This document shows, one piece after another, positions 2,649-20,799 of a stretch of 64,000 bases of DNA. Every line of letters starts with the position of its first letter. Position 1 is the stretch's first letter. A program made the position numbers and the translations under genes. A model generated the notes under the pieces. The model searched no databases and was not told the DNA's origin. It saw only the letters and a list, made by a program, of their open reading frames with translations. Where the stretch lies: positions 1-64,000 of the forward strand of contig NZ_QHHQ01000001.1 in the NCBI RefSeq assembly GCF_003258595.1, written 5' to 3'. This DNA comes from Acuticoccus sediminis. Lineage in GTDB: Bacteria; Pseudomonadota; Alphaproteobacteria; Rhizobiales; Amorphaceae.

Positions 2649-4046
2649 TCAGGCACGGGCCTGGCGCGCGGCGGCGAGACCCGCGAGGCGCCCCAGCGCG
2701 ACCGCCGTGAGCAGCCCGTTGCCGGACAGGTAGCCCGCGGCCGAGCGGCCCGAGACGCCGCACGCCGCCCCGCCCGCAGCGTAGAGGTTGGGAAGGAGCG
2801 TGCCGTCGGCCCGGGTCACATGCGCGTCGCCGTCGACCACGAGGCCGCCCTGCGTATGGAACAGTGCCCCGGTGACGCGGACGGCCCGGAACGGTGCGGC
2901 GAGCGGCGCGACGCCGGCGAAGGCACGCCCGAACGTGTCGGCGCGCTCGCCGCGCTTGGCCGCGTCGACGGCAGCCGCCGTCCGCTCCAGGGCGTCGGGG
3001 GGGAGATGCGCGGCCTCGGCGAGCGCCGCGACGGTGTCGCCCTCGACCACCGCGCCGGCGGCGACGGCGTTGCGATAATCCTCGAACTGGCCGGCGATGT
3101 CGGCGATGCGGGCGTCGAAGATCGTCCACGCGACCCCGTCCTGCTGCTCGAGGACCCGCGCGGCCTGCTCGGAGTAGCCCGTCGCCTCGTTGGAGAAGCG
3201 CTCGCCGGACGCGTTCACCTGGAAGCCGCCTTCCATGACGGTCGCCCAGGTCAGAAGGATGCCCGCGGGGTGGGCGACGGACCCGTGCCCCTGATGGCCC
3301 GAGAGGTCGCGCACCGTGGCCCCCAGCGCCTCGCCCCACAGGAGCGCGTCGCCCTGGTTGCCGGGATGGCCGAAGTAGAGCGCGTCCGCCAGCTCGGGGA
3401 TGTGCCTCGCGACCAGCGCCCTGTTCCCGCCGTAGCCATTGCAGGCGAGGATCAGCGTCTCGCAGCCGATCTCCTCGGCCGTCCCGTCCGGCCGCCCGGC
3501 GACCACGCCGCGGACCCGGCCGTCGGGCGCCGCGACCAGGGTCGTCACGTGCGCGTCGCAGATCATGTCGATGCCAGCCGCCTCGGCCGCCTGGCGCAGC
3601 CGGTCGATCAGTTCCTCGCCGGAGCGGGAGGGCAGCCCGTGCATGCGGTAGGCCGAATGGCCCGGATAGCGGAAGTTGTCGACCACCGAGAACGGCAGCC
3701 CGTGCGCCTCGCCCAGCCACTCCAGCGCGGGACCGACGGCCCCGGTGACGGTCGCGATGAGCGCCGGGTCTGGCTCGTCGTGGGCCTTGGCCATGATGTC
3801 GGCGGCGAAGCCGGCGGGCGCGTCCTCGATCCCCGCCTCGCGCTGCCAGCGCGTGCCGGCGGCCGGGACCAGCCCGGCGGATAGCGCGGTGGAGCCGCGC
3901 GGCAGGCTGTCGCGCTCCAGCACCAGCACCTCGGCCCCCGCCTCGTGCGCCGAGAGCGCGGCCACGAGGCCCGCCGCTCCCGCGCCGATGACGAGCACCG
4001 GCACGGTCAGCGCGAAGTCGCGATCGGAGACCTCGACGGTGCTCAC
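2649..4046 (-). CDS. FAD-dependent oxidoreductase, fumarate reductase/ketosteroid dehydrogenase type
   Basis: 465 residues from a GTG at 4046. The N-terminus has the dinucleotide-binding fold VIGAGAAGL (Gly21, Gly23, Gly26) ending in an acidic residue after the second strand (VLVLERD), and the C-terminus has the second FAD contact LYAAGGAACGVSG. This layout is that of the FrdA/KstD superfamily, which moves hydride between FAD and an enone or a dicarboxylic acid. The GTG overlaps the stop of the preceding isochorismatase-fold gene in GTGA, so the two are translationally coupled. A role in reducing or desaturating an intermediate of the pathway encoded upstream is inferred. No signal peptide is seen, so the protein is probably cytoplasmic. 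Confidence 0.85.
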   Translation of the reverse strand: MSTVEVSDRDFALTVPVLVIGAGAAGLVAALSAHEAGAEVLVLERDSLPRGSTALSAGLVPAAGTRWQREAGIEDAPAGFAADIMAKAHDEPDPALIATVTGAVGPALEWLGEAHGLPFSVVDNFRYPGHSAYRMHGLPSRSGEELIDRLRQAAEAAGIDMICDAHVTTLVAAPDGRVRGVVAGRPDGTAEEIGCETLILACNGYGGNRALVARHIPELADALYFGHPGNQGDALLWGEALGATVRDLSGHQGHGSVAHPAGILLTWATVMEGGFQVNASGERFSNEATGYSEQAARVLEQQDGVAWTIFDARIADIAGQFEDYRNAVAAGAVVEGDTVAALAEAAHLPPDALERTAAAVDAAKRGERADTFGRAFAGVAPLAAPFRAVRVTGALFHTQGGLVVDGDAHVTRADGTLLPNLYAAGGAACGVSGRSAAGYLSGNGLLTAVALGRLAGLAAARQARA

Positions 4047-4657
4047 GCGGCGAGCACCTCGGCGGTCATCTCCGCGACCGTGGCGACGCGGCACACCGGG
4101 CGCAGCGCGTCGATCGCCGTGTCGTGCACGTGCTCGGAGAAGGCGGCGGTGCCGTCCGACAGCACCACCGGCTCGAGGTCGCGCACGTGGGCGTCGCGCA
4201 CCGTGGAGGCGACGCCGCCGTTGGTGACGATCCCGGCCACGATGAGCTTATGGATGTTGCACTTCTTCAGTACCCACTCCATCCGCGTCATGTAGAACGC
4301 CGAATAGGCGATCTTCTCGACCGTGAGGTCGGCGGGCTGGAGCGTGTCGACGAGCTGATGGCCCCAGGCGCCCGGTGCGAAGTCGCCCTTCTTCAGGAAG
4401 GGGCGGAGCTGCTTCAGGTGCGGGGAGATGATCGGCTCGCCCCCCTTGGCCGGGACCAGCGTGAACTGGGTGGAGATCACCCAGCCGCCCTTCTGGCGCA
4501 GCGCATCGGCGAGCGGCTTCACCCGCTCGGGCAGCGCGGCGATCGGGGCCGCCGTCTGGCCGGCGCGCCCGTAGGCGCCCTCCGGGTGGACGAAGTCGTT
4601 CTGCAGATCGACGATCAGGAGCGCCGTCTGCTCCACGGGGATGGTTGCGTCGCTCAT
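4043..4657 (-). CDS. Isochorismatase-fold hydrolase-like protein lacking catalytic Cys
   Basis: 204 residues. The family's first catalytic residue is seen in LLIVDLQNDF (Asp) and a Lys lies in the VEKIAYSAF segment. The third position is unusual: the loop normally written T-N-x-C-V reads GIVTNGGVASTVRDAH, so Gly replaces the nucleophilic Cys needed by amidases such as N-carbamoylsarcosine amidase or maleamate amidase. True isochorismatases (EntB, PhzD) also lack this Cys and cleave a vinyl ether, so the change argues against a thiol amidase mechanism rather than proving loss of function. ATG at 4657 overlaps the hyuA stop in ATGA. The hydantoinase context would suggest an N-carbamoyl hydrolase, which makes the missing Cys striking. 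Confidence 0.85.
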   Translation of the reverse strand: MSDATIPVEQTALLIVDLQNDFVHPEGAYGRAGQTAAPIAALPERVKPLADALRQKGGWVISTQFTLVPAKGGEPIISPHLKQLRPFLKKGDFAPGAWGHQLVDTLQPADLTVEKIAYSAFYMTRMEWVLKKCNIHKLIVAGIVTNGGVASTVRDAHVRDLEPVVLSDGTAAFSEHVHDTAIDALRPVCRVATVAEMTAEVLAA

Positions 4658-6711
4658 TTCCGCTCCACGATCACGTTGCCGAACCGGTCGACGCGGGCCT
4701 TCAGGTCCGGGTCGACGACGGTTGTGGCGTCGGGCTGTTCCAGGATGGCGGGGCCGTCGATCTCGGCCCCCACCGGCAGGTCGAGGCGGGCGTAGATCGC
4801 CGTCTCGTGCCAGGCGCCGGAGAACCACACGTCGCGCGTGCCTGTTCGGGCGGCGGCGATGGTGGTCGCGTTCTGCGGCGCCAGCGCGGCCATGTCGAAG
4901 CTCGGCCGAATGCCGATGGCGCTGGTGCGCAGGTTGACGATCTTCATCGGCACGCCCGGCAGCAGACGGCTGAACGAGCGCTGGTAGGCCGTCTCGAACG
5001 CCTCGCGGATCATCGCCTCGGAGACGCCGGTGGTGTCGCCCTTCAGCTCGGCCGGAACGGTGACGCTGATGGTGTGCGTCTGGCCGATGTAGTGCATGTC
5101 GAGCTCGAAGCGCGTCTCGATTCGCTCCACGGCGAGGCGGGCGTTCTCGACCACCTCGCGCGTGGCGCGCGCCTCGTGCGCCATCCGCCTGTCGAGCGAC
5201 TCGATGTCGATGCCCTCGAGGGCGACGTTCACCGTCTGCACCTGGTCGTGGCGGATGTCGGCGATGACGCAGCCGAGCGCCGACGTCACCCCGGGATAGC
5301 GCGGGACGAGCGCCGCCTTGAGGCCGACGTCCTTGATCAGCGCTCCGGCATGGAGCGCGCCGCCGCCGCCGAACGGCATCGCCGCGAAGCGTGCCGGGTC
5401 ATGGCCCCGCTCGATGGACATGAGGCGGATCGCACCCGCCATCTTGGAGTCGGCGATCCGCACGATCGCCTCCGCCGCCTCCATGACACCGAGACCCAGC
5501 GGCTCGCCCACCTGCCTGGCGATGGCCGCCTTCGCGGCCTCAACGTCGAGCCTGGCGAGCTTGCCGCCGATCGGCTTGTCGGCGTTGATGCGGCCAAGGA
5601 CGACGTTGGCGTCGGTCAGCGTCGGCCGGTCGTTGCCGCCGCCGTAGCACACCGGGCCCGGGACCGAGCCCGCGCTCTCCGGCCCGACCTCCAGCAGTCC
5701 GCCACGGTCGACGTGCGCGATGGAGCCGCCGCCCGCGCCGATGGTGGTGATCTCGATCATCGGGGTGCGGATGACGAGACCGAAGTCGATGGTCGTCTGT
5801 GCGGAGAGCGCCGTCTTGCCGTCCACCACCAGCGAGACGTCGAAGGACGTGCCGCCGAGGTCGCCGGTGATGACGTTCGGGAAGCCGGCCTCCGTCGCGA
5901 TGGCCGCCGCCGCGATGACGCCCGCCGCCGGCCCCGACAGCGCGGTGCGCGAGGGGAGCTGCCGCGCCATCTCGGTCGACATGACGCCGCCGTTTGACTG
6001 CACGATATGGAACCGGCCGGCGAAGTCGTTCTCGGCGAGCGCGCCTTCGAGGCGGCCGAGATACGAGCCGACCACCGGTTGCAGGTAGGCGTTGAGCACC
6101 GTCGTGGACGTACGCTCGAACTCGCGGATCTCGGGAAGGATCTGCGACGACGCGGCGACGCAGTCGTTCGGCCAAACCCTGCGGGCGGCCGCCAGCGCGG
6201 CCTCCTCGTTGGCGGGATTGGCGTAGGCGTTGACGAAGACGATGGCGAGCGCCTCCGCCCCCTTCGCGATCAGCGCCTTCGCCGCTTCCTCGACCTCGGC
6301 GGGGTCGAGCGCGACGCGCACCGTCCCGTCGGCGAGGGTGCGCTCGGCCACCTCGAGGCGCATGTCGCGGTCGACCACCGGCACGAAGTCGCCCCAGAGG
6401 CCCCACGTCTTGCGGCGGTCGCGCCGGCGCATCTCGAGGACGTCGCGGAAGCCGGCGGTCGTGATGAGGCCGGTCCTCGCCCCCTTGCGCTCCAGCAGCG
6501 CGTTGGTGCCGACCGTGGTGCCGTGGACGATGGAGGAGAGGTCCGCCACCGCGCCGAAGCTCGACAGGCCGTCCATGAAGCCGACGGCCTCGTTGCCGCG
6601 GTTCGATGGCACCTTGTTGGTGCGGAACGCGCGCGCGTCCTCGTCGTAGTAGAACAGGTCCGTAAACGTGCCGCCGACGTCGACGCCGACGATCTTACCC
6701 AGCGCGCTCAC
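4654..6711 (-). CDS. hyuA: Hydantoinase/oxoprolinase family protein, subunit A
   Basis: 685 residues, the normal size for HyuA-type subunits. The N-terminal ATP-binding signature GVDVGGTFTD is at residues 9-18, the hydantoinase core follows, and the second phosphate motif GDLGGTSFDV and a late FGGGGALHAG are intact. HyuA works with HyuB as an ATP-dependent enzyme that opens cyclic amides or imides (5-oxoproline, N-methylhydantoin, caprolactam) or carboxylates ketones (acetone, acetophenone). It starts at ATG 6711, which overlaps the hyuB stop in ATGA. The pair sits in an operon with its own ABC importer. No third (gamma) subunit typical of acetone carboxylase is present, which favours ring opening. 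The exact substrate is not predictable. Confidence 0.93.
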   Translation of the reverse strand: MSALGKIVGVDVGGTFTDLFYYDEDARAFRTNKVPSNRGNEAVGFMDGLSSFGAVADLSSIVHGTTVGTNALLERKGARTGLITTAGFRDVLEMRRRDRRKTWGLWGDFVPVVDRDMRLEVAERTLADGTVRVALDPAEVEEAAKALIAKGAEALAIVFVNAYANPANEEAALAAARRVWPNDCVAASSQILPEIREFERTSTTVLNAYLQPVVGSYLGRLEGALAENDFAGRFHIVQSNGGVMSTEMARQLPSRTALSGPAAGVIAAAAIATEAGFPNVITGDLGGTSFDVSLVVDGKTALSAQTTIDFGLVIRTPMIEITTIGAGGGSIAHVDRGGLLEVGPESAGSVPGPVCYGGGNDRPTLTDANVVLGRINADKPIGGKLARLDVEAAKAAIARQVGEPLGLGVMEAAEAIVRIADSKMAGAIRLMSIERGHDPARFAAMPFGGGGALHAGALIKDVGLKAALVPRYPGVTSALGCVIADIRHDQVQTVNVALEGIDIESLDRRMAHEARATREVVENARLAVERIETRFELDMHYIGQTHTISVTVPAELKGDTTGVSEAMIREAFETAYQRSFSRLLPGVPMKIVNLRTSAIGIRPSFDMAALAPQNATTIAAARTGTRDVWFSGAWHETAIYARLDLPVGAEIDGPAILEQPDATTVVDPDLKARVDRFGNVIVERK

Positions 6712-8390
6712 TCGGCCGCCTCTTTCATTCCGTAGACATCACGCGCCACCTCGGCGCTGACGAAGCCGAGGCGCACGTCGCGCCGCACGGCCTCGGGGTC
6801 GCGCTTCGACGGGTCGCCCCAGCCGCCGCCGCCGGGCGACTCCAGCCGTACCCGCTGCCCGGCGCGGACGCGCACGCCGGTGATCTTGGACACCATCGGC
6901 GGCGACTTCTCGCCCTCGTCCGACTGCCAGGTGAAGCGGTTCGTCGCCGCCTCGCCGCCGCCGACGACGCCGAACGGGGCCGCCTTGCCGCGTTCGCCGA
7001 GCAGCGACACGTCCGCGTCCGTCAGCGGCTCGATCTCGTAGATCGCGCCGACGCCGCCGCGGTGCTCGCCCGCGCCCGCCGAGTCCGGCCGCAGCGCCCA
7101 CTGGGTGAACATCACCGGATAGGCGGCTTCCAGGATCTCGATGGGCGGGATCGTCGCCGTGGAGATGGGGTTGTTGGCGTGGTTGAGGCCGTCCGTCTCC
7201 GGGTTGCCGCCGAGGCCGCCGCCGAAGAACGAGAACATCACCCAGCGCGAGCCGTCGCCACGGTAGCCCGCGATGGAGAGCGCGTTGATGGTGCCGAACG
7301 GGGCGGCCATGGCGCGCGACGGATCCGCCTGGGCGATGGCACCGAAGACGACGCCGATGAGGCGCAGGATTGTCTCGGTGTAGCCCGCCGTCGGCTTCGG
7401 CGCCTTGGCGCCGAGGAGGGAGCCGTCGGTGATCTCGAACGAGATCGGGCGAAGGCACCCGGCGTTGGCCGGAACGTCGGTGAAGACGTGCTTCAGCGCC
7501 ACGTAGCAGGCGGCGATCGTCGTCGCGCGCGAGATGTTGATCGGCCCCTGCGGCCCCGGCGAGGATCGCGAGAAGTCGAGCGTCATCGTGTCGCCGGCGA
7601 TCGTGAGGTCGAGCGCGACGGTCAGCATCTCGTCGACGATGCCGTCGTTATCGAGGACGTCCTCGAACGAGTAGCGCCCGTCCGGCAGCGCCTCGATGGC
7701 CGCGCGCATCAGCGCCTCGGCACGATCCGAGAAGGCCTCGAACGCGGTGGAGATCGTCGCGTCGCCGTACTCGTCGAGCAGCGCGACGAGGCGCTTCTCG
7801 CCGAGGTCGAGGGCGTTGAGCTGGCCGTTGAGGTCACCCCAGTTGGACATCGGCACGCGCGCCATCGCATCGATGATGTCGAGGATGTCCTGCTGCATCT
7901 CGCCGGCGCGGATGAGCTTCACCGGCGGGATGCGCGCGCCTTCCTGGAAGCTTTCGGTGGCCTTCGGGTTGTAGCCGCCGGGGACGTTGCCGCCGACGTC
8001 CAGCCAGTGGCCCACCGATGCCATCCAGCAGAAGAGCGTGCCGTCGCGGAAGATCGGCCGCACGAGGCGGAAGTCGTTGAGGTGCGTGCCACCGTCGTAC
8101 GGGTCGTTGAAGATGAAGGTGTCGCCCTCCTTCAGCCCGCCGTCCCTTGCCACCTTGTCGATGACCGCCTTCACCGCGAACGCCATCGCCCCGACGAAGA
8201 TCGGCAGGCCGTTGGCGCCCTGCACCAGCGTCTCTCCGGTCTCGGCGTGGTAGAGGCCGTGACAGGCGTCCTTCGCCTCGGCGATGGTCGGGTTGAAGGC
8301 CGAGCGGTAGAGCGTCGCGTCCATCTCGTCGACGATCTGCTCGAGCCGCCCCTTGAGGACGGCGAGGGTGACTGGATCGAGCGCGCTCAC
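6708..8390 (-). CDS. hyuB: Hydantoinase/oxoprolinase family protein, subunit B
   Basis: 560 residues. The opening MSALDPVTLAVL, the segment QGANGLPIFVG, the metal-site-like FNDPYDGGTHLNDF and the late ESPGGGGWGDP are hallmark HyuB sequences. It is the partner of the downstream hyuA and carries the hydrolytic or acceptor half of the ATP-dependent reaction. A GTG at 8390 overlaps the stop of the lyase gene in GTGA. Length and motif order show no truncation. The pairing order B-then-A along the mRNA is common in alphaproteobacterial operons. Substrate specificity is unknown. Confidence 0.93.
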   Translation of the reverse strand: MSALDPVTLAVLKGRLEQIVDEMDATLYRSAFNPTIAEAKDACHGLYHAETGETLVQGANGLPIFVGAMAFAVKAVIDKVARDGGLKEGDTFIFNDPYDGGTHLNDFRLVRPIFRDGTLFCWMASVGHWLDVGGNVPGGYNPKATESFQEGARIPPVKLIRAGEMQQDILDIIDAMARVPMSNWGDLNGQLNALDLGEKRLVALLDEYGDATISTAFEAFSDRAEALMRAAIEALPDGRYSFEDVLDNDGIVDEMLTVALDLTIAGDTMTLDFSRSSPGPQGPINISRATTIAACYVALKHVFTDVPANAGCLRPISFEITDGSLLGAKAPKPTAGYTETILRLIGVVFGAIAQADPSRAMAAPFGTINALSIAGYRGDGSRWVMFSFFGGGLGGNPETDGLNHANNPISTATIPPIEILEAAYPVMFTQWALRPDSAGAGEHRGGVGAIYEIEPLTDADVSLLGERGKAAPFGVVGGGEAATNRFTWQSDEGEKSPPMVSKITGVRVRAGQRVRLESPGGGGWGDPSKRDPEAVRRDVRLGFVSAEVARDVYGMKEAAE

Positions 8391-9268
8391 GCCACGTCCT
8401 CTTCGGTGTCGGGGGTCTCGTAGGCCCTGCCGCGCTCCAGCATCTCGGGCGTGCCGATCAGCGCGTTGAGGTTCGTGAAGTCGAACATCCTGTCGGCGAA
8501 CGGACGGTTGGAGCCGTTCGTGGCCAGCGAGCGGTAGTAGTCCTGCGCGTGGCGGGCGAGAGCGCGGACGATGCCGCCGGGGAAGATCACGATGGAGAAG
8601 CCCAGCGCGCCCAGCTCGTCGGCGGAGGAGATCGGCGTGTCGCCGCCCTCCACCATGTTGGCGAGAAGGGGCCTCATGCCGCCGAGCGCCGCGGTCACGG
8701 CCTTGAGCTGGTCCTCCGAACGCGGCGCCTCGACGAAGAGGATGTCCGCCCCCGCCTCGGCGTAGGCGCGCGCGCGGTCGATGGCGCGCTCGAAGCCTTC
8801 CACCGCCACGGCGTCGGTCCGCGCGACGATCAGCGTGTCCTCGCTGACGCGCGCGTCGACGGCGGCCTTCACCTTGCCGACCATCTCGCCGGCGGTGATC
8901 AGCGACTTGTCGCGCAGGTGCCCGCAGCGCTTGGGCATCGTCTGGTCTTCGAGCTGGATCGCGGTTGCGCCGGCGCGCTCGAACGTGCGCACCGTGCGCT
9001 CCACGTTGAGCGCGTTGCCGTAGCCGTTGTCGGCGTCGACGATGAACGGCGTCGGCACGCGGTCGCGCACCAGGGCGATGGTGTCGGCGACCTCGTTCAT
9101 GGACACGAGGCCGATGTCGGGCCGGCCGAGCCGCGTGTAGGCGATCGCCGCACCCGACAGATACAGGAGCTCGAAACCGGCATCCGTGGCGATCGAGGCC
9201 GTCAGGGCGTCGTAAACGCCGGGCGCCACGACCGGCCGCTTGTCTTGAAGTCGCTCCCTCAAGCGCAT
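8387..9268 (-). CDS. Isocitrate lyase/PEP mutase family C-C lyase
   Basis: 293 residues, the size of 2-methylisocitrate lyase, oxaloacetate decarboxylase and 2,3-dimethylmalate lyase. The metal-site strand VDADNGYGN (Asp78, Asp80) and the catalytic flexible loop KRCGH (residues 113-117) with its Cys are intact, so a retro-aldol C-C cleavage or decarboxylation of a 2-hydroxy-dicarboxylate is likely. AAGGA lies upstream of the ATG at 9268. It sits between the ABC importer and hyuB in the operon. A LeuC/LeuD-like hydro-lyase pair about 9.5 kb away in the same region makes a hydration-then-cleavage sequence plausible, as known for dimethylmaleate in nicotinate fermentation. The substrate is not known. 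Confidence 0.9.
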   Translation of the reverse strand: MRLRERLQDKRPVVAPGVYDALTASIATDAGFELLYLSGAAIAYTRLGRPDIGLVSMNEVADTIALVRDRVPTPFIVDADNGYGNALNVERTVRTFERAGATAIQLEDQTMPKRCGHLRDKSLITAGEMVGKVKAAVDARVSEDTLIVARTDAVAVEGFERAIDRARAYAEAGADILFVEAPRSEDQLKAVTAALGGMRPLLANMVEGGDTPISSADELGALGFSIVIFPGGIVRALARHAQDYYRSLATNGSNRPFADRMFDFTNLNALIGTPEMLERGRAYETPDTEEDVA

Positions 9269-9293: not shown

Positions 9294-9995
9294 TCAGAGG
9301 CCCAGATACGCGCGCTTCAGCTCGGGATCGTCCCGCAGCGTCTCGGCCGGACCGGACAGTGCGACCTGCCCGTTCTCGAGGATGTACGCCCGCGACGCGA
9401 GCTGAAGCGATTGGACGACGTTCTGCTCCACCAGCATGATGGGCAGACCGCTCGTGTTGAGCTCCGCAATGAGCGCGAACATCTCCTCCACCAGGAGCGG
9501 GGAGAGGCCGAGCGAAGGCTCGTCGAGGATGAGGAGCTTTGGCTCTCCCATCATGCCGCGGCCGATGGCCAGCATCTGCTGTTCACCGCCCGACAGCGTC
9601 CCCGCCGACTGGCGGTGACGTTCCTTGAGGCGCGGGAAGGTCGCGAACACCCGCTCCAGGTTGGTTTTGCGCGCCGCCCCGGCCCGGCGGTAGCAGCCGC
9701 ACTCGAGGTTCTCGCGCACCGAAAGGTTCGGGAAGATCCGCCGCCCTTCCGGCACGTGGATCAGCCCCCTGGCGACGATCTCCGGCGCCGGGAGGCCGTC
9801 GATCCGCTCGCCGTCGAACACGACGGCGCCGCTGTCGCGCTTCACGAGGCCCGACAGCACCATGTTGAGGGTCGTCTTGCCGACGCCGTTGGCGCCGAGC
9901 ACGGCGACGATCTCGCCGGCGTCGACCTTGAGGTCGATGCCGCGCAGCACCTCGGTGCCGCCGTAGCCGGCGCGGATGGCGGAGACCTCAAGCAT
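9294..9995 (-). CDS. livF: Branched-chain-type ABC transporter ATP-binding protein LivF
   Basis: 233 residues, standard for LivF. The Walker A GANGVGKTT, signature LSGGEQQ, Walker B LLILDEPS and the late switch histidine region (LVEQN) are all present, so it should hydrolyse ATP. It is the second nucleotide-binding subunit of the HAAT-type importer encoded with LivG, LivM, LivH and LivK. Its ATG (9995) overlaps the end of livG by 8 bases, and 25 bases separate it from the lyase gene. Despite the name, LivFGHMK-type systems also import amides, urea and aromatic acids; here the operon's catabolic genes suggest a cyclic amide or related acid. Confidence 0.95.
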   Translation of the reverse strand: MLEVSAIRAGYGGTEVLRGIDLKVDAGEIVAVLGANGVGKTTLNMVLSGLVKRDSGAVVFDGERIDGLPAPEIVARGLIHVPEGRRIFPNLSVRENLECGCYRRAGAARKTNLERVFATFPRLKERHRQSAGTLSGGEQQMLAIGRGMMGEPKLLILDEPSLGLSPLLVEEMFALIAELNTSGLPIMLVEQNVVQSLQLASRAYILENGQVALSGPAETLRDDPELKRAYLGL

Positions 9996-10737
9996 GGGAG
10001 CCCGCCTGCTGCTGCATCCGCCCGGCCGCGCCGTGGCCGAGGTAGGCCTCGATCACCGTCGGGTCGACGCACACCTGCTGCGGCGTGCCGGCCGCGATCA
10101 CCGCGCCCTGATTGATGACGGTGACGTGCTCGCAAAGGTCCATCACGGCCTGCATGATGTGCTCGATCATCAGAATGGTGACGCCGTCCTGGTCGCGGAT
10201 GGCCCGCACGATCGGCAGGATGTCGCGGATCTCGGACGGGTTGAGCCCGGCGAGCACCTCGTCGAGCAGGAGCAGCCTGGGCGACGTCGCCAGCGCCCGG
10301 GCGAGCTCCAGCCGCTTGCGCCCGGCGACGGTGAGCCCGGACGCGGGCCGGTCGAGCTGGGAGCCGAGGCCGACGCGCATCGCCACGTCCTGCGCCTTCG
10401 CCATCGCCTCACGCCGGTGGCGGGTGTGCAGATAGGCGCCGACCGCGATGTTCTCGCGCACCGACAGGCCCGCGAACGGCTTCACGATCTGGAACGTCCG
10501 CGCGAGGCCGCGGCGGGCCCGCACGTGCGGCTTCTCGCGGGTGATGTCCTCGCCCTCGTAGACGACGCGGCCCTCGGTCGGCGGCAGGAAGCCGGCGATC
10601 ATCGCGAACAGCGTCGTCTTGCCGGCGCCGTTGGGGCCGATCAGCCCGGCGATGGCGCCCTGCGGCACCTCCAGCGAGACGTTGTTGACCGCGACGAGGC
10701 CCGAGAAGCGCTTGGTCAGTCCGTCGACCTTCAGCAT
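9988..10737 (-). CDS. livG: Branched-chain-type ABC transporter ATP-binding protein LivG
   Basis: 249 residues. Walker A GPNGAGKTT and Walker B LLLLDEV are intact; the ABC signature region reads LTVAGRKRLELARAL instead of LSxGQ, a variant seen in many LivG proteins. The C-terminal VDPTVIEAYLG is the typical LivG tail. The start at 10737 gives TGATG with the livM stop, a one-base overlap implying coupled translation. It pairs with LivF at the membrane to drive import through LivH and LivM. Confidence 0.95.
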   Translation of the reverse strand: MLKVDGLTKRFSGLVAVNNVSLEVPQGAIAGLIGPNGAGKTTLFAMIAGFLPPTEGRVVYEGEDITREKPHVRARRGLARTFQIVKPFAGLSVRENIAVGAYLHTRHRREAMAKAQDVAMRVGLGSQLDRPASGLTVAGRKRLELARALATSPRLLLLDEVLAGLNPSEIRDILPIVRAIRDQDGVTILMIEHIMQAVMDLCEHVTVINQGAVIAAGTPQQVCVDPTVIEAYLGHGAAGRMQQQAGSHA

Positions 10738-12577: not shown

Positions 12578-12667
12578 ACGCGCTTTCGCTCGGACAATGG
12601 GGAACGGGGGACCGTCGTGCCCCCCGCCGCGGGGTCCGGGAGGGGCCGTGCGGCCCGCTCCGGGGTG

Positions 12668-13908: not shown

Positions 13909-14712
13909 TTATCGATCCTGATCGCCCGGCGTGGGTGCCGCCGGGACGGTCGCAGCCGGGCTCCAGCGGCTTTCGCCTTCGCCCCTGGTCCGAACGAGAT
14001 CCATCTGCAGGCTGTACCGGTCGGGCCGGTAGAGCGCCTGCAGGTATTCGAGCCCCTCCCCGTCGCGGCCGTACACCGCGCGGGTGAGCGAGATCAGCGG
14101 CGCGCCGACCGAGAGGTCGAGCGCCTCCGCGACGTCGGGGCTGGCGAGCGTCGCGCTGATGTCCTGCGTCGCGGTCTCGGCACTGTGGCCGCTGCGCTCG
14201 ATCAGCTCCAGCAGCGGCAGGGCGGCGAGGTCCTCGCGCGAGTAGGCACGGCCGATGCGCTCGGGGACGGACGCGGTGAGGTACGAGAACGGCACACCGT
14301 CCACGTGGCGCACGCGCACGGACACCTGGACGCGCTCGTCGTCCTCCATCCTGAGGGCGTCGCGGATCCATTCCGTCGGCATCTGGTAGGCGAAGGTGAG
14401 GAGCCGCGCTTCCGTCGAGCGGCCCATCTCGCGCAGGTGCGTGAAGACGTTGGCGACATCGGCGATGATGCCCTGGCGCTTGGCGACGTCCTTGCGCACG
14501 AAGGTTCCGGAGCCGGGCCGCTTGTCGATGAGCTGTTCGGCCGCCAGCCGCTCCAGCGCACGGCGGATGGTGACGCGGGAGACGTTGAAGGCGTCGGCGA
14601 GCGCGGGTTCTGCGGGAAGGCGGCTGCCCGCCGGAAGCTGTCCGGCGGCGATCTGGTCGCGGAGCAAGAGGTAGACGCGTTGCGTCTTCAACGGCTCCGT
14701 TGCCTCCCTCAT
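13909..14712 (-). CDS. GntR/HutC-type transcriptional regulator with UTRA domain
   Basis: 267 residues. A winged helix at residues 1-75 (LPAEPALADAFNVSRVTIRRAL is the recognition part, seen as LADAFNVSRVTIRRALE) is followed by a UTRA effector domain (about 95-240). HutC-type regulators usually repress catabolic operons and release DNA when they bind the pathway substrate or an early intermediate. The start at 14712 is the only workable ATG; an ATG upstream at 14726 hits a stop at once. Its own promoter holds two palindromes matching HutC-type half-sites, so autorepression is likely. It is divergent from the Old-Yellow-type oxidoreductase and should control both arms. Confidence 0.92.
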   Translation of the reverse strand: MREATEPLKTQRVYLLLRDQIAAGQLPAGSRLPAEPALADAFNVSRVTIRRALERLAAEQLIDKRPGSGTFVRKDVAKRQGIIADVANVFTHLREMGRSTEARLLTFAYQMPTEWIRDALRMEDDERVQVSVRVRHVDGVPFSYLTASVPERIGRAYSREDLAALPLLELIERSGHSAETATQDISATLASPDVAEALDLSVGAPLISLTRAVYGRDGEGLEYLQALYRPDRYSLQMDLVRTRGEGESRWSPAATVPAAPTPGDQDR

Positions 14713-14728
14713 ACCGCGGCCTCCATCG

Positions 14729-14755
14729 GTATCAATCTTGATACAAGCATTGTAT
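14729..14755. promoter_or_regulatory. Two overlapping operator palindromes
   Basis: GTATCAA-TC-TTGATAC (14729-14744) and ATACAA-GCA-TTGTAT (14741-14755) are both perfect inverted repeats and share four bases. TTGTAT/ATACAA half-sites are typical of HutC-type GntR regulators. The second covers the proposed -10 of the regulator gene. Binding by the adjacent regulator is inferred. Confidence 0.65.
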
Positions 14756-14869: not shown

Positions 14870-16843
14870 ATGGCAGAGCACCTGTCGCGTGTCTTGGAAC
14901 CGCTCCGGGTCGGCAATCTGACCTTCCGCAATCGGATCTTCGTCCCCGCCCATACCACCAACTACGGCGAGGACCACCTGCCGAGCGACCGCCACCGGGC
15001 CTACCACGAGGCGCGCGCCAGGGGCGGGGTCGGGGCGATCATCTTCGAGTCGATCCGGGTTACGGCGAACTCGCTCGGCCGCCCGCAGGCCGTCTGCGGC
15101 TTCGACCCGGCCTGCATCGCCCCGTTCCGCCGCGTCACCGACGCGGTGAAGGCGCACGACACGCGCATCCTCGGCCAGATCATTCACCTCGGCCGGCAGG
15201 TCGAGGGCGACTTCGAGCGCACCGTGTCCTGGGGCCCGTCGCCGATCCCGTGGTCGACCACCGCCCTGCCGCCCCGTCCGATGGACGAGGACGACATGGC
15301 CGAGGTGATCGAAGGCCACGTCGTCACCGCCCTCAATCTCGTGGAGGCGGGGTTCGAGGGGATCGAGCTGCAGATGGGCCATGGCCACCTGCTGCAGCAG
15401 TTTCTCTCCCCCCTCTCCAACCAGCGCGAGGACACGTACGGCGGCACGACGGAGAACCGCCTGCGCTTCCCGCTCGCGGTGCTCGCCGCCGTGCGCGCCG
15501 CCATCGGCCCGGACATCACCCTCGGTATCCGCGTCAGCGGCGACGAGTACGTGGACAACGCCCTCCATATCGAGGAGGTCGAGCGCATGGTGCCGATGCT
15601 GGCGCAGGCCGTCCCCGTCGACTTCGTCAACGTGTCGCACTCGGCCTACCACGCGAGCTATTCCCTCGCGACGCAGATGGCGGACATGGCCATCGACCCG
15701 GCTCCCTTCCGCACGCTCCCCGAGCGGATCCGGGCCGCCCTGCGCGCCGCCGGGCACGAGACGCCGGTCTTCGCCGTCTGCCGCTTCTCCCGCCTCGCCG
15801 AGGCCGAGGAGATGATCGCCTCCGGCCGCGCCGACGCCGTCGGCATGGCCCGCGCCCACCTCGCCGAGCCCGCCATCGTGAAGAAGACGCTGGAGGGGCG
15901 GGAGGACGAGATCCGCCCCTGCATCGCCTGCGACCAGGGCTGCGCGGGGATGCTGGAGAAGAACCTCCCCATCCGCTGCCTGGTGAACCCGGTCGCCGGG
16001 CTCGAGGCCGAATGGTCCGAGCCCGAGGATGCGCCCGCCACCCAACCGCGCCGCGTCCTCGTCGTCGGCGGCGGCCCGGCCGGGCTCGAGGCGGCCCGCG
16101 TCGCCGCCAGCCGGGGCCACAACGTCACGCTCTGGGAACGCACCGACGGCCTCGGCGGCCAGCTCGCCACCGCGGCCGCCATGCCGAAGCGGTCGAAGTT
16201 CGGCGACTTCCTCGCGTTCGAGCGGAGCGCCCTCGCCCGCCTCCAGGTGCGCGTCGCATACGGCGAGGCCGCTGACGCGGACGCCATCGCCGCCTTCGGC
16301 GCCGACACCGTGGTGCTCGCCACCGGCTCCGACCCCGTCCGCCAGCACGTTCCCGGCGGCGGGCGGACGGTGACGGTCACCGAAGTGATCGCCGACCCGG
16401 ATGCCCTGGGCGGCGCCGTCGCGGTGGCGGACGTCACCGGCGAGTGGACCGCGCTCGCCGCGATCGAGCACCTCGCCGACCTCGGCAAGCGCGTCACCGT
16501 GTTCCTGCCGATCAACGCCTTCGCCTGGCGCACGACGATCTACTCCACGCTGGCGACCTCCAGGCGGCTGCGCGAGCGCAAGGTGAAGCTGATGCCGCTG
16601 CGCAAGGTGCTCGCCTGGGACGGCACGACGCTCGACGTCGAGGACGTCTCCACCGGCGAGCGCGAGGCCCACGGCCCCTTCGGCGCGCTCGTCTTCGCCC
16701 AGCACAATTTTGCGGACCAGTCGCTCTACCGCGAGCTCAAGCGCCGTGGCATCCCGGTCCGCCAGGTCGGCGACAACGTCGCCCCCAGAACCGCCCTCGA
16801 GGCCGTCTTCCACGGCCACAAGACCGCTCGGGAGATTGCGTAA
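14870..16843 (+). CDS. FMN/4Fe-4S/FAD oxidoreductase of the Old Yellow Enzyme family
   Basis: 657 residues. An FMN-binding TIM barrel (residues about 1-345; LEPLRVGNLTFRNRI opens it) is followed by a 4Fe-4S motif with Cys351, Cys354, Cys358 and Cys370, then a dinucleotide fold VVGGGPAGLE (Gly400, Gly402, Gly405). The architecture is that of 2,4-dienoyl-CoA reductase, trimethylamine dehydrogenase and N-methylproline demethylase. The reaction would be either enone/dienoyl reduction or oxidative N-demethylation. I chose ATG 14870 because the barrel begins directly after it; in-frame ATGs at 14738 and 14804 would add a non-family extension. It is divergent from the GntR gene, with the operators between, and abuts the next gene. 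Confidence 0.9.
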   Translation: MAEHLSRVLEPLRVGNLTFRNRIFVPAHTTNYGEDHLPSDRHRAYHEARARGGVGAIIFESIRVTANSLGRPQAVCGFDPACIAPFRRVTDAVKAHDTRILGQIIHLGRQVEGDFERTVSWGPSPIPWSTTALPPRPMDEDDMAEVIEGHVVTALNLVEAGFEGIELQMGHGHLLQQFLSPLSNQREDTYGGTTENRLRFPLAVLAAVRAAIGPDITLGIRVSGDEYVDNALHIEEVERMVPMLAQAVPVDFVNVSHSAYHASYSLATQMADMAIDPAPFRTLPERIRAALRAAGHETPVFAVCRFSRLAEAEEMIASGRADAVGMARAHLAEPAIVKKTLEGREDEIRPCIACDQGCAGMLEKNLPIRCLVNPVAGLEAEWSEPEDAPATQPRRVLVVGGGPAGLEAARVAASRGHNVTLWERTDGLGGQLATAAAMPKRSKFGDFLAFERSALARLQVRVAYGEAADADAIAAFGADTVVLATGSDPVRQHVPGGGRTVTVTEVIADPDALGGAVAVADVTGEWTALAAIEHLADLGKRVTVFLPINAFAWRTTIYSTLATSRRLRERKVKLMPLRKVLAWDGTTLDVEDVSTGEREAHGPFGALVFAQHNFADQSLYRELKRRGIPVRQVGDNVAPRTALEAVFHGHKTAREIA

Positions 16844-17836
16844 GTGTCGATACTGGTGACCGGAGCCGGCGGGTTCGTCGGCCTCAACGTGGTGGAACGC
16901 CTGCTCGACGACGGACACACCGTCGTCGCCCTCGGCAACCGCCCGCTGCCGCAGATCGTGCGCGACCGGTTCGCGCGGCGGCCGGGTACGCTGCATCCCG
17001 TGACCGCGGACGTGCGCGACGCCGCCGCGATGCGCGCGGTCCTGAAGGACTACGGCGTCGACCGCATCTTCCACGGCGCGGCGATCACCCTCGGCGTCGC
17101 CGGCACCATCGCCCCGGCGACCGACGTCGTCGACATCAACGTCGTCTCGACCGCGGTCCTGCTGGAACTCGCCCGCGAGGTGGAGATCGTCCGCTTCGTC
17201 TACCCAAGCTCGACCGCCGTCTACACCGGCTACGCGTTCGACGCCGGCCCCGTCACCGAAGCGCACGCGCCGACGCCCACCGCCCTCTACGGCTTCACCA
17301 AGCTCGCCTGTGAGCGGCTGATCCGCGACGCCGCCGCGCGCCACGGCCTCTCCGCGGTGTGCGGGCGCATCACGGCCGTGTTCGGTGCGTGGGAGCACGA
17401 CACCGGCGCGCGCGAGACGCTGAGCCCGCCCTACCAGATCGCCCGCAAGGCGCTGACGGACCAGCCGATCGTCATCTCGCGGGGCGGCTGGCGCGACTGG
17501 ACCTCGGCCCGCGACGTCGCCCGCGTCTTCTCGCTCCTGCTGACGCGGGACACGCTGCCGCACGATATCTACAACATCAGCCTCGGCGAAACGTGGGACC
17601 CGGCGCTGCTGTGCGAGGCGCTAAGCGCGCGGATCCCCTCGATCGACTGGTCCGCCGGGGAGACGAACCTCTCCTACAACGACGACCTGACGCGCAAGCG
17701 CTCGGCCCTCTCCAACACCCGCCTCGCCGAGGACTTCGGCTTCCGCTTCATGCCCCCGGCCGAGGCCGCGGCTGACTACGCCGAATGGGTCGCCGAGTTC
17801 GGCGCCGCGGGCTTCGAGGCGCTGGAAAGCCGCTGA
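16844..17836 (+). CDS. NAD-dependent epimerase/dehydratase family protein (extended SDR)
   Basis: 330 residues. The NAD(P) motif TGAGGFVG is at residues 6-13, and the catalytic set is Ser122-Ser123-Thr124 with Tyr149 and Lys153 (YGFTK). This is the extended short-chain dehydrogenase fold used by sugar epimerases and by uronate or 3-hydroxy acid dehydrogenases. The GTG at 16844 follows the stop TAA of the preceding gene without a gap, and GGAG just before that stop serves as ribosome site, so the two genes form one operon. The substrate is unknown; membership in the catabolic region suggests a hydroxy acid rather than a nucleotide sugar. Confidence 0.88.
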   Translation: MSILVTGAGGFVGLNVVERLLDDGHTVVALGNRPLPQIVRDRFARRPGTLHPVTADVRDAAAMRAVLKDYGVDRIFHGAAITLGVAGTIAPATDVVDINVVSTAVLLELAREVEIVRFVYPSSTAVYTGYAFDAGPVTEAHAPTPTALYGFTKLACERLIRDAAARHGLSAVCGRITAVFGAWEHDTGARETLSPPYQIARKALTDQPIVISRGGWRDWTSARDVARVFSLLLTRDTLPHDIYNISLGETWDPALLCEALSARIPSIDWSAGETNLSYNDDLTRKRSALSNTRLAEDFGFRFMPPAEAAADYAEWVAEFGAAGFEALESR

Positions 17837-17862
17837 GCCCGGCCGGGGCGCGCGGGGCCGCG

Positions 17863-18603
17863 TCAGGTCGCTGTGTAGCCGCCGTCCACCAGCATGTCGG
17901 TGCCGGTCATGAAGCTGGCGCCGTCGCTGGCGATGAACAGCGCGGCCTCGGCGATCTCCTCCGGCCGGCCCACGCGGCCCAGCGCGTGGAGCTTGCCGAG
18001 CCGCTCCTGAACCCCGTCCTCGCCGCCCATCACGCTGGTCAGCCGGCTCGTCATCACGGCGCCCGGCGACAGGCTCACCGCCCGGATCCCGTCCTCCGCA
18101 TGGTCCACCGCCAATGTCCGCGTCAGGGAAATCAGCCCCGCCTTGCTCGCCGAGTAGGGCGCGCGGCCCTTCGTCGTGACGGTGCCGAGCTGCGAGGCCA
18201 CGTTGACGATCACGCCGCCCCCGCCAGCCGCCATGTGCGGGATCACCTGCTGGCACATCAGGAAGGCGCCGGTGAGGTTGATCTCCAGCGTCTCGCGCCA
18301 TGTGGCCGCGGTGATCTCGGTGACCTTGCCCACGAGCACGGGCCCTGCGGCATTGTTCACCAGAATGTCGATGCGCCCGTACGCGTCGAACACCGCCGCC
18401 ACGGCCCGCGCGACGGCCTCGTCGTCGGCGACGTCGCAGGCCATCGCCATGCCGCCTTCGGGCGCGGCCGGCACCCTGCCCTCGATATCGAGCGCCGCGA
18501 CGCGCGCGCCGGCCTTGGTGTAGCGCGCCACGATGGCCGCGCCGATGCCGCCGCTGGCGCCCGTGACGATCGCCACGCGCCCGTCGAGGAGTAGGTCCGC
18601 CAT
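17863..18603 (-). CDS. Short-chain dehydrogenase/reductase (classical SDR)
   Basis: 246 residues. TGASGGIG (residues 14-21), NNAAG, and the catalytic Ser137, Tyr150 and Lys154 (YSASK) are intact; DGGYTAT ends the protein in the FabG-like way. It should oxidise or reduce a hydroxyl/keto group with NAD(P). I selected ATG 18603 because AAAGGA sits nine bases upstream; another in-frame ATG at 18624 is less well placed. It is convergent with the epimerase-like gene and divergent from leuC-like, with a TGTAT/ATACA palindrome in the shared promoter region, which ties it to the GntR regulon by inference. Confidence 0.9.
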   Translation of the reverse strand: MADLLLDGRVAIVTGASGGIGAAIVARYTKAGARVAALDIEGRVPAAPEGGMAMACDVADDEAVARAVAAVFDAYGRIDILVNNAAGPVLVGKVTEITAATWRETLEINLTGAFLMCQQVIPHMAAGGGGVIVNVASQLGTVTTKGRAPYSASKAGLISLTRTLAVDHAEDGIRAVSLSPGAVMTSRLTSVMGGEDGVQERLGKLHALGRVGRPEEIAEAALFIASDGASFMTGTDMLVDGGYTAT

Positions 18604-18682
18604 GAAGTCCGTTCCTTTCGTCATGCCGCCCGGTGTCGCCGAACCCTCTCGCCGACCCGGGCGATGCACCTTAACTTGGATG

Positions 18683-18702
18683 CTGTATGGTGTTTAATAC
18701 AG
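18683..18702. promoter_or_regulatory. Operator-like palindrome between SDR and leuC-like gene
   Basis: CTGTAT (18683-18688) and ATACAG (18697-18702) form a perfect 6+6 inverted repeat with an 8-base spacer in the 148-base divergent gap. The TGTAT/ATACA half-sites match those at the GntR promoter, although spacing differs. Shared control by the GntR/HutC regulator is a reasonable inference. Confidence 0.5.
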
Positions 18703-18751
18703 GAAACAATGCGACCCCGGCTCGGGCGTCGCAGGCCGCGGAGGAAGTGTG

Positions 18752-20191
18752 ATGTCGGCCCCCGACACCCCGAAGACGCTCTACGACAAGGTGTGGGACG
18801 CCCACGTCGTCGTGACCCGAGAGGACGGCGAGAGCCTGTTGTGGATCGACCGGCATTTCGTCCACGAAGGTTCACACCACGCATTCAATACATTGAAATC
18901 GCGGGGCGCAAAGGTCACGCGGCCGGATCTCACGTTCGGCATCGCCGATCACTATGTGCCGACGCGCGGGCGGGCCACGATGGCCGGCGCCGATCCCTCC
19001 ATCGCCGGCATGGTGGAGAAGCTGACGGCCAACTGCGCGGCCAACGACGTCCACATCTTCGGCCTGACGGACCCGCGGCAGGGCATCGTGCACGTCGTCG
19101 GTCCTGAGCAGGGGCTGACCCTGCCGGGCCTGACGATGGTCTGCGGCGACAGCCACACCTCGACCCATGGCGCGTTCGGCGCGATGGCGTTCGGCATCGG
19201 CGCGTCCGAGGTGGCCCACGTCCTCCTCACGCAGACGATCTGGCAGCGCAAGTCGAAGCGCATGCGGGTGACGGTCGACGGTGCGCTCGCTCCCGGCGTC
19301 AGCGCCAAGGACATCGCTCTGTCGTTCATCGCGAGAGTCGGCGCGGACGGCGCGCGCGGCCACGCCATCGAATATGCCGGCTCGGCGGTGCGCGGCCTGT
19401 CGATGGAGGGGCGGCTGACGCTGTGCAACCTGTCGATCGAGAGCGGCGGCCGGCTCGGCATGGTGGCTCCGGACCAGACGACGGTCGACTATGTCCGTGG
19501 CCGCCCGATGGCCCCGCAGGGCGCCGTCTTCGATGCCGCCGCGGAGCTGTGGCTCTCCCTCGCCAGCGACGCGGACGCAGCGTTCGACCGCGAGGTGGTG
19601 CTGGCGGGTGCGGACATCGTGCCCGTCGTCACCTGGGGCATCAGCCCGGAGGATGCGCTCCCCGTCACCGGCACCGTCCCCGACCCGGCCTCGATCAGCG
19701 ACGAGGCGCGCGCGGCACACGTCAGGTCGGCGCTCGACTACATGGGACTGACGCCGGGCATGAAGCTCGAGCAGGTGCCGGTGGACCGCGTCTTCATCGG
19801 CTCCTGTACCAACGCGCGGATCGAGGACCTGCGGGCCGCGGCCGCCGTCCTCGCCGGGCGCAAGGCGCGGGTGCCGGGCCTCGTGTCGCCGGGCTCGTCG
19901 CTTGTGAAGCGGCAGGCGGAGGAAGAGGGTCTCGACCGGATCTTCGCCGACGCGGGGCTCGAATGGGTGGAATCCGGCTGCTCGATGTGCGTCGGCATGA
20001 ACGGAGACCTGGTGCCGCCGGGCGAGCGCTGCGCCTCCACCACGAACCGCAACTTCCGCGGCCGCCAGGGACCGGGCGCGCGCACCCACATCATGTCGCC
20101 GGCGATGGTCGCCGCCGCGGCCGTCACCGGCCATCTGACCGACCCGCGCCCGCTGCTGCACGGCCGGCCCCTGGAGACCCAAGGCGCATGA
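18752..20191 (+). CDS. leuC: 3-isopropylmalate dehydratase large-subunit-like hydro-lyase
   Basis: 479 residues. The three 4Fe-4S ligands are Cys352 (GSCTNARIEDLR), Cys410 and Cys413 (GCSMC), and GDSHTSTHGAFG is intact, so an aconitase-type (de)hydration is expected with the small subunit encoded next. The N-terminus (WIDRHFVHEGSHHAFNTLKSRG) departs from standard LeuC, where the equivalent reads HEVTSPQAFEGLR. Genomic context is catabolic, with no leuB or leuA. It may therefore act on another C4-C6 dicarboxylate: maleate, citraconate or dimethylmaleate hydratases are LeuCD relatives. ATG 18752 is preferred over GTG 18749 because GAGGAAG is correctly spaced. Confidence 0.85.
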   Translation: MSAPDTPKTLYDKVWDAHVVVTREDGESLLWIDRHFVHEGSHHAFNTLKSRGAKVTRPDLTFGIADHYVPTRGRATMAGADPSIAGMVEKLTANCAANDVHIFGLTDPRQGIVHVVGPEQGLTLPGLTMVCGDSHTSTHGAFGAMAFGIGASEVAHVLLTQTIWQRKSKRMRVTVDGALAPGVSAKDIALSFIARVGADGARGHAIEYAGSAVRGLSMEGRLTLCNLSIESGGRLGMVAPDQTTVDYVRGRPMAPQGAVFDAAAELWLSLASDADAAFDREVVLAGADIVPVVTWGISPEDALPVTGTVPDPASISDEARAAHVRSALDYMGLTPGMKLEQVPVDRVFIGSCTNARIEDLRAAAAVLAGRKARVPGLVSPGSSLVKRQAEEEGLDRIFADAGLEWVESGCSMCVGMNGDLVPPGERCASTTNRNFRGRQGPGARTHIMSPAMVAAAAVTGHLTDPRPLLHGRPLETQGA

Positions 20192-20799
20192 CCCCGTTCA
20201 CCACCCTCACGGCCACCGCCTGCCCCCTGCCCTACTCGGGGATCGACACCGACCAGCTGATCCCGGCGCGCTTCATGAAGCGCCCGCGGTCCGAGGGCTA
20301 CGGCCAGTTCCTGCTCCACGACCTGCGGTTCGACGAGGCGGGGGCACCGCGCGCGGACTTCCCCCTCAACGCCCCGCAATACGGGGATGCAGCGATCATC
20401 GTCGCCCGGCGCGGCTTCGGCGGCGGCTCCTCGCGCGAGGCGGCGGTCTACGCGCTGGTCGACTACGGGATCCGCTGCGTGATCGCGCCGAGCTTCGGCG
20501 ACATCCACGCCTCGAACGAGGTGAACAACGGCATGCTCCCGGCCCGCGTCACGGAGGAGGACGCCGAGCGGCTGCTCGCCCGCGCCCCAGAAACGAAGCT
20601 GACGGTGGACCTCGAGGCACAGACCGTCACCGCCGGCGACATCGTCGTGCCCTTCGAGGTGGAGCCGGTGTGGCGCACCAAGCTCCTCAACGGCTGGGAC
20701 GACCTCGACCTCACCGCGAGCTTTGCCGACGCCATATCCGCGTTCGCCGCGAACGACGCCGCGCAGAACCCCTGGAAGACCCCCACCCGCACCGCCTGA
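20188..20799 (+). CDS. leuD: 3-isopropylmalate dehydratase small-subunit-like protein
   Basis: 203 residues, usual LeuD size. The opening GIDTDQLIPARF and the swivelling-domain loop GGGSSREAAVYAL (Gly80-Ser-Ser-Arg-Glu) are recognisable. The residue after SSRE is Ala85 where classical LeuD has His (GSSREHA), a change near the active-site loop that fits altered substrate choice. ATG 20188 overlaps the large-subunit stop in ATGA, so subunits are made together. The C-terminus NPWKTPTRTA shows no damage. Function as the small subunit is firm; the substrate is not. Confidence 0.85.
   Translation: MTPFTTLTATACPLPYSGIDTDQLIPARFMKRPRSEGYGQFLLHDLRFDEAGAPRADFPLNAPQYGDAAIIVARRGFGGGSSREAAVYALVDYGIRCVIAPSFGDIHASNEVNNGMLPARVTEEDAERLLARAPETKLTVDLEAQTVTAGDIVVPFEVEPVWRTKLLNGWDDLDLTASFADAISAFAANDAAQNPWKTPTRTA

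Follow-up and report, generated by a model that had tools for sequence, protein, structure and literature searches.

A conserved thirteen-gene set in Acuticoccus sediminis, tentatively assigned to the catabolism of a five-membered cyclic imide

The window analysed here is a 64,000-nucleotide stretch of Acuticoccus sediminis DNA (contig NZ_QHHQ01000001.1, positions 1 to 64,000; 70% GC) that begins where the contig begins; the genome as a whole measures 7.76 Mb and is split over 44 contigs. Between positions 2649 and 20799 it carries a group of genes that a preliminary description had read as a compact, self-regulated catabolic island. All the genes listed there are present as long reading frames rich in GC at the third codon position (high GC3), and the proteins given to family searches matched the families named. 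Thirteen of them recur together in other bacteria, and what they encode suggests a GntR-controlled operon pair for the use of a five-membered cyclic imide. A 2,3-disubstituted maleimide, of which hematinic acid is one, seems the likeliest substrate, and we put this reading at slightly below an even chance.

Proteins were assigned with NCBIfam and Pfam in two family searches of ten proteins each, all of which matched the named families, and four of the window proteins were compared in sequence with the PDB. The livF, livG, livM and livH genes were named from sequence, gene order and an annotated Roseomonas counterpart, not from a family search. The genes, including those for a flavin adenine dinucleotide (FAD) enzyme, an old yellow enzyme (OYE) relative and two short-chain dehydrogenases/reductases (SDRs), are listed with two operator-like sites.

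2649 to 4046, minus strand: frdA-like gene, FAD enzyme of the flavocytochrome c/urocanate reductase family (family search and residue alignment)
4043 to 4657, minus strand: isoch, isochorismatase-fold protein with Asp17 and Lys115, and Gly148 in place of the nucleophilic Cys (RutB alignment, Foldseek, Gly in 99/99)
4654 to 6711, minus strand: hyuA, ATP-binding subunit, DVGGTFTD at residue 11 (CapA, 506 bits)
6708 to 8390, minus strand: hyuB, metal-binding subunit of an ATP-dependent lactam/hydantoin hydrolase (Pfam Hydantoinase_B; CapB, 330 bits)
8387 to 9268, minus strand: icl, ICL/PEPM-family C-C lyase with a KRCGH loop (PrpB model, PDB alignments, motif conservation)
9294 to 9995, minus strand: livF-like ATPase (position, sequence, conservation, Roseomonas counterpart)
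9988 to 10737, minus strand: livG-like ATPase (position, sequence, conservation, Roseomonas counterpart)
10737 to 11708, minus strand: livM-like permease (position, sequence, conservation, Roseomonas counterpart)
11705 to 12577, minus strand: livH-like permease (position, sequence, conservation; Roseomonas counterpart annotated as a branched-chain amino acid ABC permease)
12668 to 13894, minus strand: livK-type periplasmic binding protein (Pfam Peripla_BP_6)
13909 to 14712, minus strand: gntR, regulator of the GntR/UTRA type (HutC-like) that heads the left operon (Pfam GntR and UTRA; homologue of at least 33% identity in 20/20 extended loci)
14729 to 14744, no strand assigned: operator-like palindrome GTATCAATCTTGATAC, in the gntR-oye intergenic region, immediately before the gntR start; locus L023 has it in the same place
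14870 to 16843, plus strand: oye, OYE/Fe-S/FAD oxidoreductase, accessory (mycofactocin OYE_2 model, 586 bits, under the cut-off of 793)
16844 to 17836, plus strand: epimerase-like extended SDR, accessory (Pfam Epimerase)
17863 to 18603, minus strand: classical SDR, accessory (family search)
18685 to 18700, no strand assigned: operator-like palindrome GTATGGTGTTTAATAC, between the classical SDR gene and leuC; identical in L023
18749 to 20191, plus strand: leuC-like hydro-lyase large subunit (NCBIfam LeuC)
20188 to 20799, plus strand: leuD-like hydro-lyase small subunit (Pfam Aconitase_C, NCBIfam LeuD)

The left arm lies wholly on the minus strand and reads, by coordinate, frdA-like, isoch, hyuA, hyuB, icl, livF, livG, livM, livH, livK and gntR. 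Five of its ten junctions are 4-base overlaps (frdA/isoch, isoch/hyuA, hyuA/hyuB, hyuB/icl and livM/livH), so that the earlier statement that such overlaps run through most of its length was slightly generous; of the other five, two are overlaps, of 8 bases and 1 base, and three are gaps, measuring 25, 90 and 14 bases. The right arm is not a single operon, its strands being mixed: oye and the epimerase-like SDR gene are on the plus strand, the classical SDR gene on the minus strand and leuC-leuD on the plus strand.

The pattern GTAT-N8-ATAC matched twice in the 64 kb window, once before each arm, where 0.03 matches were expected, and none of 100 shuffles gave two matches. The two arms therefore look co-regulated, which supports their reading as one regulon in the window, with GntR predicted to bind the palindrome. 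The island thus appears to be self-regulated, with its own GntR and an operator-like site before both arms, and this common site speaks against the possibility, raised at the outset, that the arms answer to different inducers. Fetched loci outside the own genome gave ten further matches, nine of them between genes of the set and one (L146) not; that of L150 is placed by the annotation of that locus between gntR and a tautomerase gene.

Conservation was examined among 61 relatives, own genome included. An isoch orthologue (at least 58% identity) was found in 13, and a lyase orthologue (at least 59%) in 13/13 of these carriers vs 1/48 non-carriers, two lyase homologues of 43-45% among the 48 being left uncounted. 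Twelve loci were fetched from relatives: leuC, hyuA, hyuB, isoch and icl were present in all ten longer than 8 kb, in altered gene orders, and two short contig pieces carried only parts of the set. GTDB genome contigs were then scanned with the isoch alignment, giving at least 536 related stretches; only the best 80 entered the sample, which is therefore biased towards close kin of the window. Over 92 loci the usual order was liv genes, [MmgE/PrpD], icl, hyuB, hyuA, isoch, [frdA], [leuCD]; the MmgE/PrpD gene, absent from this island, was present in 39 of them. A leuC gene call was missing in 40 of the 92, mostly because the fetched stretch ended (one of them, L032, does have leuC by tblastn). 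When 29 of these 40 were checked genome-wide, 27 had a 70-77% identical leuC 10.2-14.6 kb from isoch; in L073 leuC lay 45 kb away and L107 had only a 61% match elsewhere. Twenty of the 27 loci were extended to leuC, which is there by choice, and with per-gene identity thresholds of 30-55% all thirteen core genes were present in 18, the other two lacking only frdA; frdA was divergent from leuC in 8/20.

The conserved core is thus thirteen genes, encoding GntR, LivKHMGF, the ICL-type lyase, HyuB, HyuA, the isochorismatase-fold protein, the FAD enzyme, LeuC and LeuD, and the grouping exceeds chance. OYE and both SDRs are optional members: OYE was found at 45% identity or more in 5/20 extended loci, the epimerase-like SDR in 4/20 upstream stretches and the classical SDR beside the core in 1/20 (L142, 59%). 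The preliminary description had proposed eleven genes as the unit to look for across genomes, together with whatever is always added. The core did prove to be kept together across relatives and extended loci; the unit is not those exact eleven, and MmgE/PrpD is a frequent addition. The isoch gene is rare in a phylum-wide draw (8/398) and less so in the order (48/397; own genome counted in both). Overall the set occurs in many Alphaproteobacteria; Azospirillum, Methylobacterium, Bradyrhizobium and Rhizobium are among the carriers named in the contig scan, and certain Burkholderiales have close variants of it. Its enzymes recur farther off, with substitutions, in Roseomonas, Sulfitobacter, Tistrella, Paraburkholderia and Variovorax; the Sulfitobacter variant has TRAP in place of Liv, and in Tistrella the operon is without the lyase, the FAD enzyme and the Liv genes. 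That so many Alphaproteobacteria keep these thirteen genes as a fixed set, regulator included, makes it very likely that the set serves one often-met compound.

The enzymes of the left arm point to an opening of a cyclic amide bond. HyuA keeps the phosphate-binding motif DVGGTFTD, and Asp41, His103, Asp106 and His128 of HyuB match, by motif rather than by full alignment, the metal ligands Asp41, His99, Asp102 and His124 reported for CapB (PMC8453981). By motif and ligands HyuAB can be placed in the ATP-dependent lactam hydrolase family. The best-scoring model was caprolactamase, whose NCBIfam equivalog cut-off was not reached (506 and 330 bits vs 1000). The hydantoinase A N-terminal family has 23 matches in the own genome, a striking expansion of ATP-dependent lactam/hydantoin hydrolases.

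The isochorismatase-fold protein has lost the residue on which its amidase relatives depend. Gly148 stands at the position of the RutB catalytic Cys in 99/99 sequences, with Asp17 kept in 96/96 readable sequences (3 gaps) and Lys115 in 99/99. The collection scan had been partly seeded with GIVTNGGVA, and the 13 sequences of A1, found without that seed, all have Gly too. In its best sequence matches the protein stands closer to RutB and BiuH than to isochorismatases, and an AlphaFold model (mean pLDDT 79.7) gave RutB, BiuH and TrtA as its best Foldseek matches; isochorismatase domains appeared from rank 20 onward and NicF ranked 49th. The fold assigned earlier is therefore correct, but the Asp-Lys-Cys triad of cysteine amidases is not present: the protein is not an ordinary cysteine amidase, because Gly replaces the nucleophilic Cys, and a standard maleamate amidohydrolase was ruled out for the same reason. 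A maleamate with two substituents can lose ammonia to attack by its adjacent carboxylate when an acid assists. We propose that catalysis may be substrate-assisted, and the retention of Asp and Lys with loss of Cys would fit an acid-helped release of ammonia by the carboxylate of the substrate. It might also fit the pattern of isochorismatases, which are not known to carry the Cys. An amidase-fold enzyme invariantly without its nucleophile poses a testable question of enzymology.

The remaining enzymes suggest hydration followed by C-C cleavage. The lyase has the K(K,R)CGH loop of ICL/PEPM C-C lyases, and its loop Cys115, which we take to be catalytic, is kept in 90/91 sequences, the other having a gap. 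In PDB alignments its motifs FVEAP and NMVEGG resemble those of petal death protein and not the FPEA/EFG of PrpB; the PrpB 2-methylisocitrate lyase equivalog cut-off was missed (289 vs 354 bits). LeuC (646 vs a cut-off of 560) and LeuD (174 vs 116) belong to the LeuCD isopropylmalate dehydratase family, an assignment of sequence family only. A role in leucine synthesis was rejected because further LeuC is present in the genome, where three more matches (58-62%) were found, two of these matches being interrupted by a single in-frame stop; the window LeuC is probably a catabolic paralogue. Across loci the place of the hydratase is filled either by LeuC of about 65-85% identity or by a distant LeuC of 32-38%, the one such protein tested against NCBIfam (L149) being of the homoaconitase/isopropylmalate isomerase (IPMI) subfamily. 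Hydration therefore looks to be required, with two kinds of enzyme able to supply it. The FAD enzyme, earlier called FrdA-like, is indeed of a flavocytochrome c-like family, but gives no ground for assuming fumarate-type chemistry: in the window protein, the only one aligned, Tyr takes the place of the Arg in the ELTTRD segment of 1qo8 and TWATV stands opposite SETVR, so that the Arg/Glu residues which we take to bind fumarate in fumarate reductase flavoproteins are not found. A fumarate- or tricarballylate-type enzyme was accordingly rejected, the TcuA model also scoring 155 bits against a cut-off of 369.

From these parts a scheme can be proposed. A cyclic imide would be imported by LivKHMGF and opened by HyuAB with ATP to a maleamate, from which the Cys-less isochorismatase-fold protein would release ammonia by acid catalysis, with the adjacent carboxylate of the substrate as nucleophile. 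The FAD enzyme might set the oxidation state, for example from succinimide to maleimide; LeuCD would hydrate the resulting disubstituted maleate and the ICL-type lyase would cleave the alkyl-malate to pyruvate and a carboxylate. An outline of import, ATP-dependent ring opening, hydration and ICL-type cleavage had been suggested before and is supported by the core gene set and the retained residues; all reactions, their order and the substrate are inferred. With the substrate left unnamed, we think this imide-to-lyase scheme somewhat more probable than its negation.

Hematinic acid is 3-methyl-4-carboxyethyl-maleimide, a fragment of chlorophyll and heme. With it as substrate, the maleate would be 3-methyl-homoaconitate and the second product glutarate. 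That the products might be pyruvate with glutarate or butyrate, and that the neighbours should be examined for a CoA ligase and for glutaryl-CoA genes, was noted in advance of any search on this point. Glutaryl-CoA dehydrogenase (GcdH; 620 bits to GCDH 1sir) was first found in the Tistrella operon, with a gap of 48 after isoch; it also follows a core gene directly and on the same strand in two further lineages, overlapping frdA in L032 and with a gap of 56 after frdA in L131. In G550, a second genome of the L032 genus, it lies about 2.3 kb from isoch. The partner of the Tistrella GcdH is a CoA-transferase with succinate--glutarate CoA-transferase as its top-scoring model (523 bits, under the cut-off of 750). 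By our own arithmetic about 0.1 such adjacencies are expected by chance. Adjacency in three lineages, together with the glutarate CoA-transferase-like gene, therefore points to hematinic acid, a possible substrate that we still regard as doubtful. One study reports hematinic acid in sweet potato leaves, with maleimides not detected, and cites it for senescent barley and radish leaves and for lake sediments (PMC7318184). The ecological fit of the carriers with such sources is circumstantial. Among the matches listed in the open literature nothing was found on bacterial use of hematinic acid or imides.

Several observations weigh against this assignment. GcdH is adjacent in only 3/133 loci, some of which overlap or share a genome. 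It is present somewhere in 77/80 carriers, mostly far away, and its presence is not clearly enriched (12/13 carriers vs 36/48 non-carriers); judged over 20 kb, its closeness would be unremarkable in a set of 80 genomes, and only immediate same-strand adjacency does. For the missing Tistrella lyase, a search of the plasmid, with the chromosome outside the search, gave just a 36% homologue about 210 kb away. Lys is common at the LeuD loop position, but the comparison held no biosynthetic LeuD, so the residue is not diagnostic of homoaconitate use. The Cys loss in isoch speaks against ordinary amide hydrolysis, and the scheme explains neither the part of the FAD enzyme nor the frequent MmgE/PrpD, racemase-fold and tautomerase extras. 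The strict palindrome occurs in the gntR region of just 5/20 upstream stretches, so the site elsewhere has diverged or is different. No gene diagnostic of an imide or of tetrapyrroles was seen, heme- and bilin-degrading neighbours not having been searched for.

Other readings of the same genes were weighed. The scheme might hold with another disubstituted maleimide or a dialkyl-maleate precursor, such as methyl-ethyl- or methyl-vinyl-maleimide, going to pyruvate and butyrate or the like, with the GcdH neighbours incidental. The lyase motifs would suit this, as petal death protein presumably prefers dialkyl-malates, and so would the rarity of GcdH beside the module; yet GcdH adjoins it in separate lineages, the alternative transporters are of carboxylate type, and the leaf study found hematinic acid and detected no maleimides (PMC7318184). 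We judge this substrate change unlikely. A partly accidental neighbourhood, in which lactam opening and alkyl-malate cleavage share a regulator and belong to separate pathways, would accommodate the divergent arms of the window and the opposite-strand SDR gene that breaks the right one; retention of the core across differing gene orders and the palindrome common to both arms make it very improbable.

Two further possibilities turn on the isochorismatase-fold protein. If HyuAB, whose relatives include hydantoinases (PMC8453981), opened a substituted hydantoin or oxo-pyrimidine, isoch could cleave the ureido group in the manner of RutB or biuret hydrolase, and LeuCD and the lyase could process the carbon skeleton. 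The sequence and fold matches to RutB, BiuH and TrtA agree with this, but the nucleophilic Cys that those enzymes need is invariantly Gly here, the core has no amino-acid-processing enzyme and, by our own reasoning, a ureido acid has no natural path to a maleate-type hydratase substrate; the route seems improbable. Alternatively HyuAB might open an ene-lactam and the Cys-less protein hydrolyse the enamine, Asp protonating the C=C bond as isochorismatases do to vinyl ethers. No ene-lactam known to us leads to a LeuCD/ICL tail, and the best matches are closer to RutB and BiuH than to isochorismatases; these, however, do appear among the fold matches from rank 20 onward, Asp17 and Lys115 are kept where Cys is gone, and a catalytic Asp is described for the isochorismatase VibB and its relatives (PMC12210187). 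This is improbable too, by a hair less so than the ureido route. Slightly more doubtful than hematinic acid as the substrate is the widest form of the main proposal, a widespread new bacterial route ending tetrapyrrole breakdown, by which hematinic acid and related maleimides would give ammonia, pyruvate and glutarate through an amidase-fold enzyme without Cys, the carboxylate of the substrate acting in its place.

The genes around the core vary. In 125 loci the neighbours on the same strand and no more than 100 bases from a core gene, labelled by names fixed beforehand, were MmgE/PrpD, racemase-fold, tautomerase, Ohr/OsmC-like, OYE and GcdH genes, with single epimerase and CoA-transferase genes. 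A further 37 entries were unlabelled; by eye they included diverged LeuD, DctP and TctC, and the rest held no other widely recurring gene. The alternative transporters are carboxylate types (TRAP DctP, TctC): TctC tricarboxylate-type binding proteins adjoin leuCD in L151 (7464-8429) and L153 (1505-2485), and TRAP transporters do so in Sulfitobacter. One or two extra Asp/Glu/hydantoin-racemase-fold proteins are encoded after isoch or frdA in L035, L039, L041, L051, L056, L070, L071 and L104, in some of these loci together with a tautomerase or a second MmgE/PrpD. In L034 an Amdase-family protein (arylmalonate decarboxylase-like, 11832-12605) lies about ten bases past leuD. An Ohr/OsmC-like gene, named from sequence alone, adjoins frdA in the window (2137-2562, minus strand), and in L133, L134 and L145 similar genes of 37-47% identity separate the epimerase-like gene from leuC. 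Farther out, judged by eye only, are a B12-binding radical SAM-like protein (330-2054, plus strand; RGCPFLCEFCDI) and an iron(III) ABC-transporter binding protein-like gene (22776-23840, minus strand).

Should hematinic acid prove to be the substrate, the pathway would supply a last step in the turnover of chlorophyll and heme. Chlorophyll is made and degraded on a scale of 10^12 kg yearly (PMC7318184). The thirteen-gene combination was not found among the matches listed in the open literature, which leaves out most subscription journals.

Its parts can be compared with five known systems. HyuAB shares the HyuA ATP motif and four HyuB metal ligands with the CapAB/HyuAB hydantoinase/5-oxoprolinase family, but scores far under the CapAB cut-offs, and the caprolactam pathway is not known to include the neighbouring genes of this island. 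The isochorismatase-fold protein resembles RutB, biuret hydrolase and the maleamate amidohydrolase NicF in fold and in its Asp and Lys, and differs in the Gly at their catalytic Cys. The lyase shares the Cys loop and the FVEAP and NM(I,V)EGG motifs with the petal death protein branch, a distant relative (190 bits). The tail of the 2-methylcitrate cycle (PrpD, aconitase, PrpB) likewise joins an aconitase-superfamily hydro-lyase to an ICL-type lyase, often with MmgE/PrpD; the MmgE/PrpD of L039, the only one compared, has IDS-epimerase and IRG1 as its nearest solved chains. The island core, however, has no methylcitrate synthase, and its lyase falls under the PrpB cut-off with other loop motifs. 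Nicotinate fermentation employs dimethylmaleate hydratase and 2,3-dimethylmalate lyase, again a LeuCD/HacAB-type hydratase with an ICL/PEPM lyase giving pyruvate and a carboxylate; the core lacks the mutase and isomerase of that pathway and is entered via HyuAB. Nicotinate itself was rejected as the starting compound, since by our own carbon count it yields no LeuCD substrate. The parts are thus of known families, and the combination is a methylcitrate- or dimethylmaleate-like tail fed by ATP-dependent ring opening.

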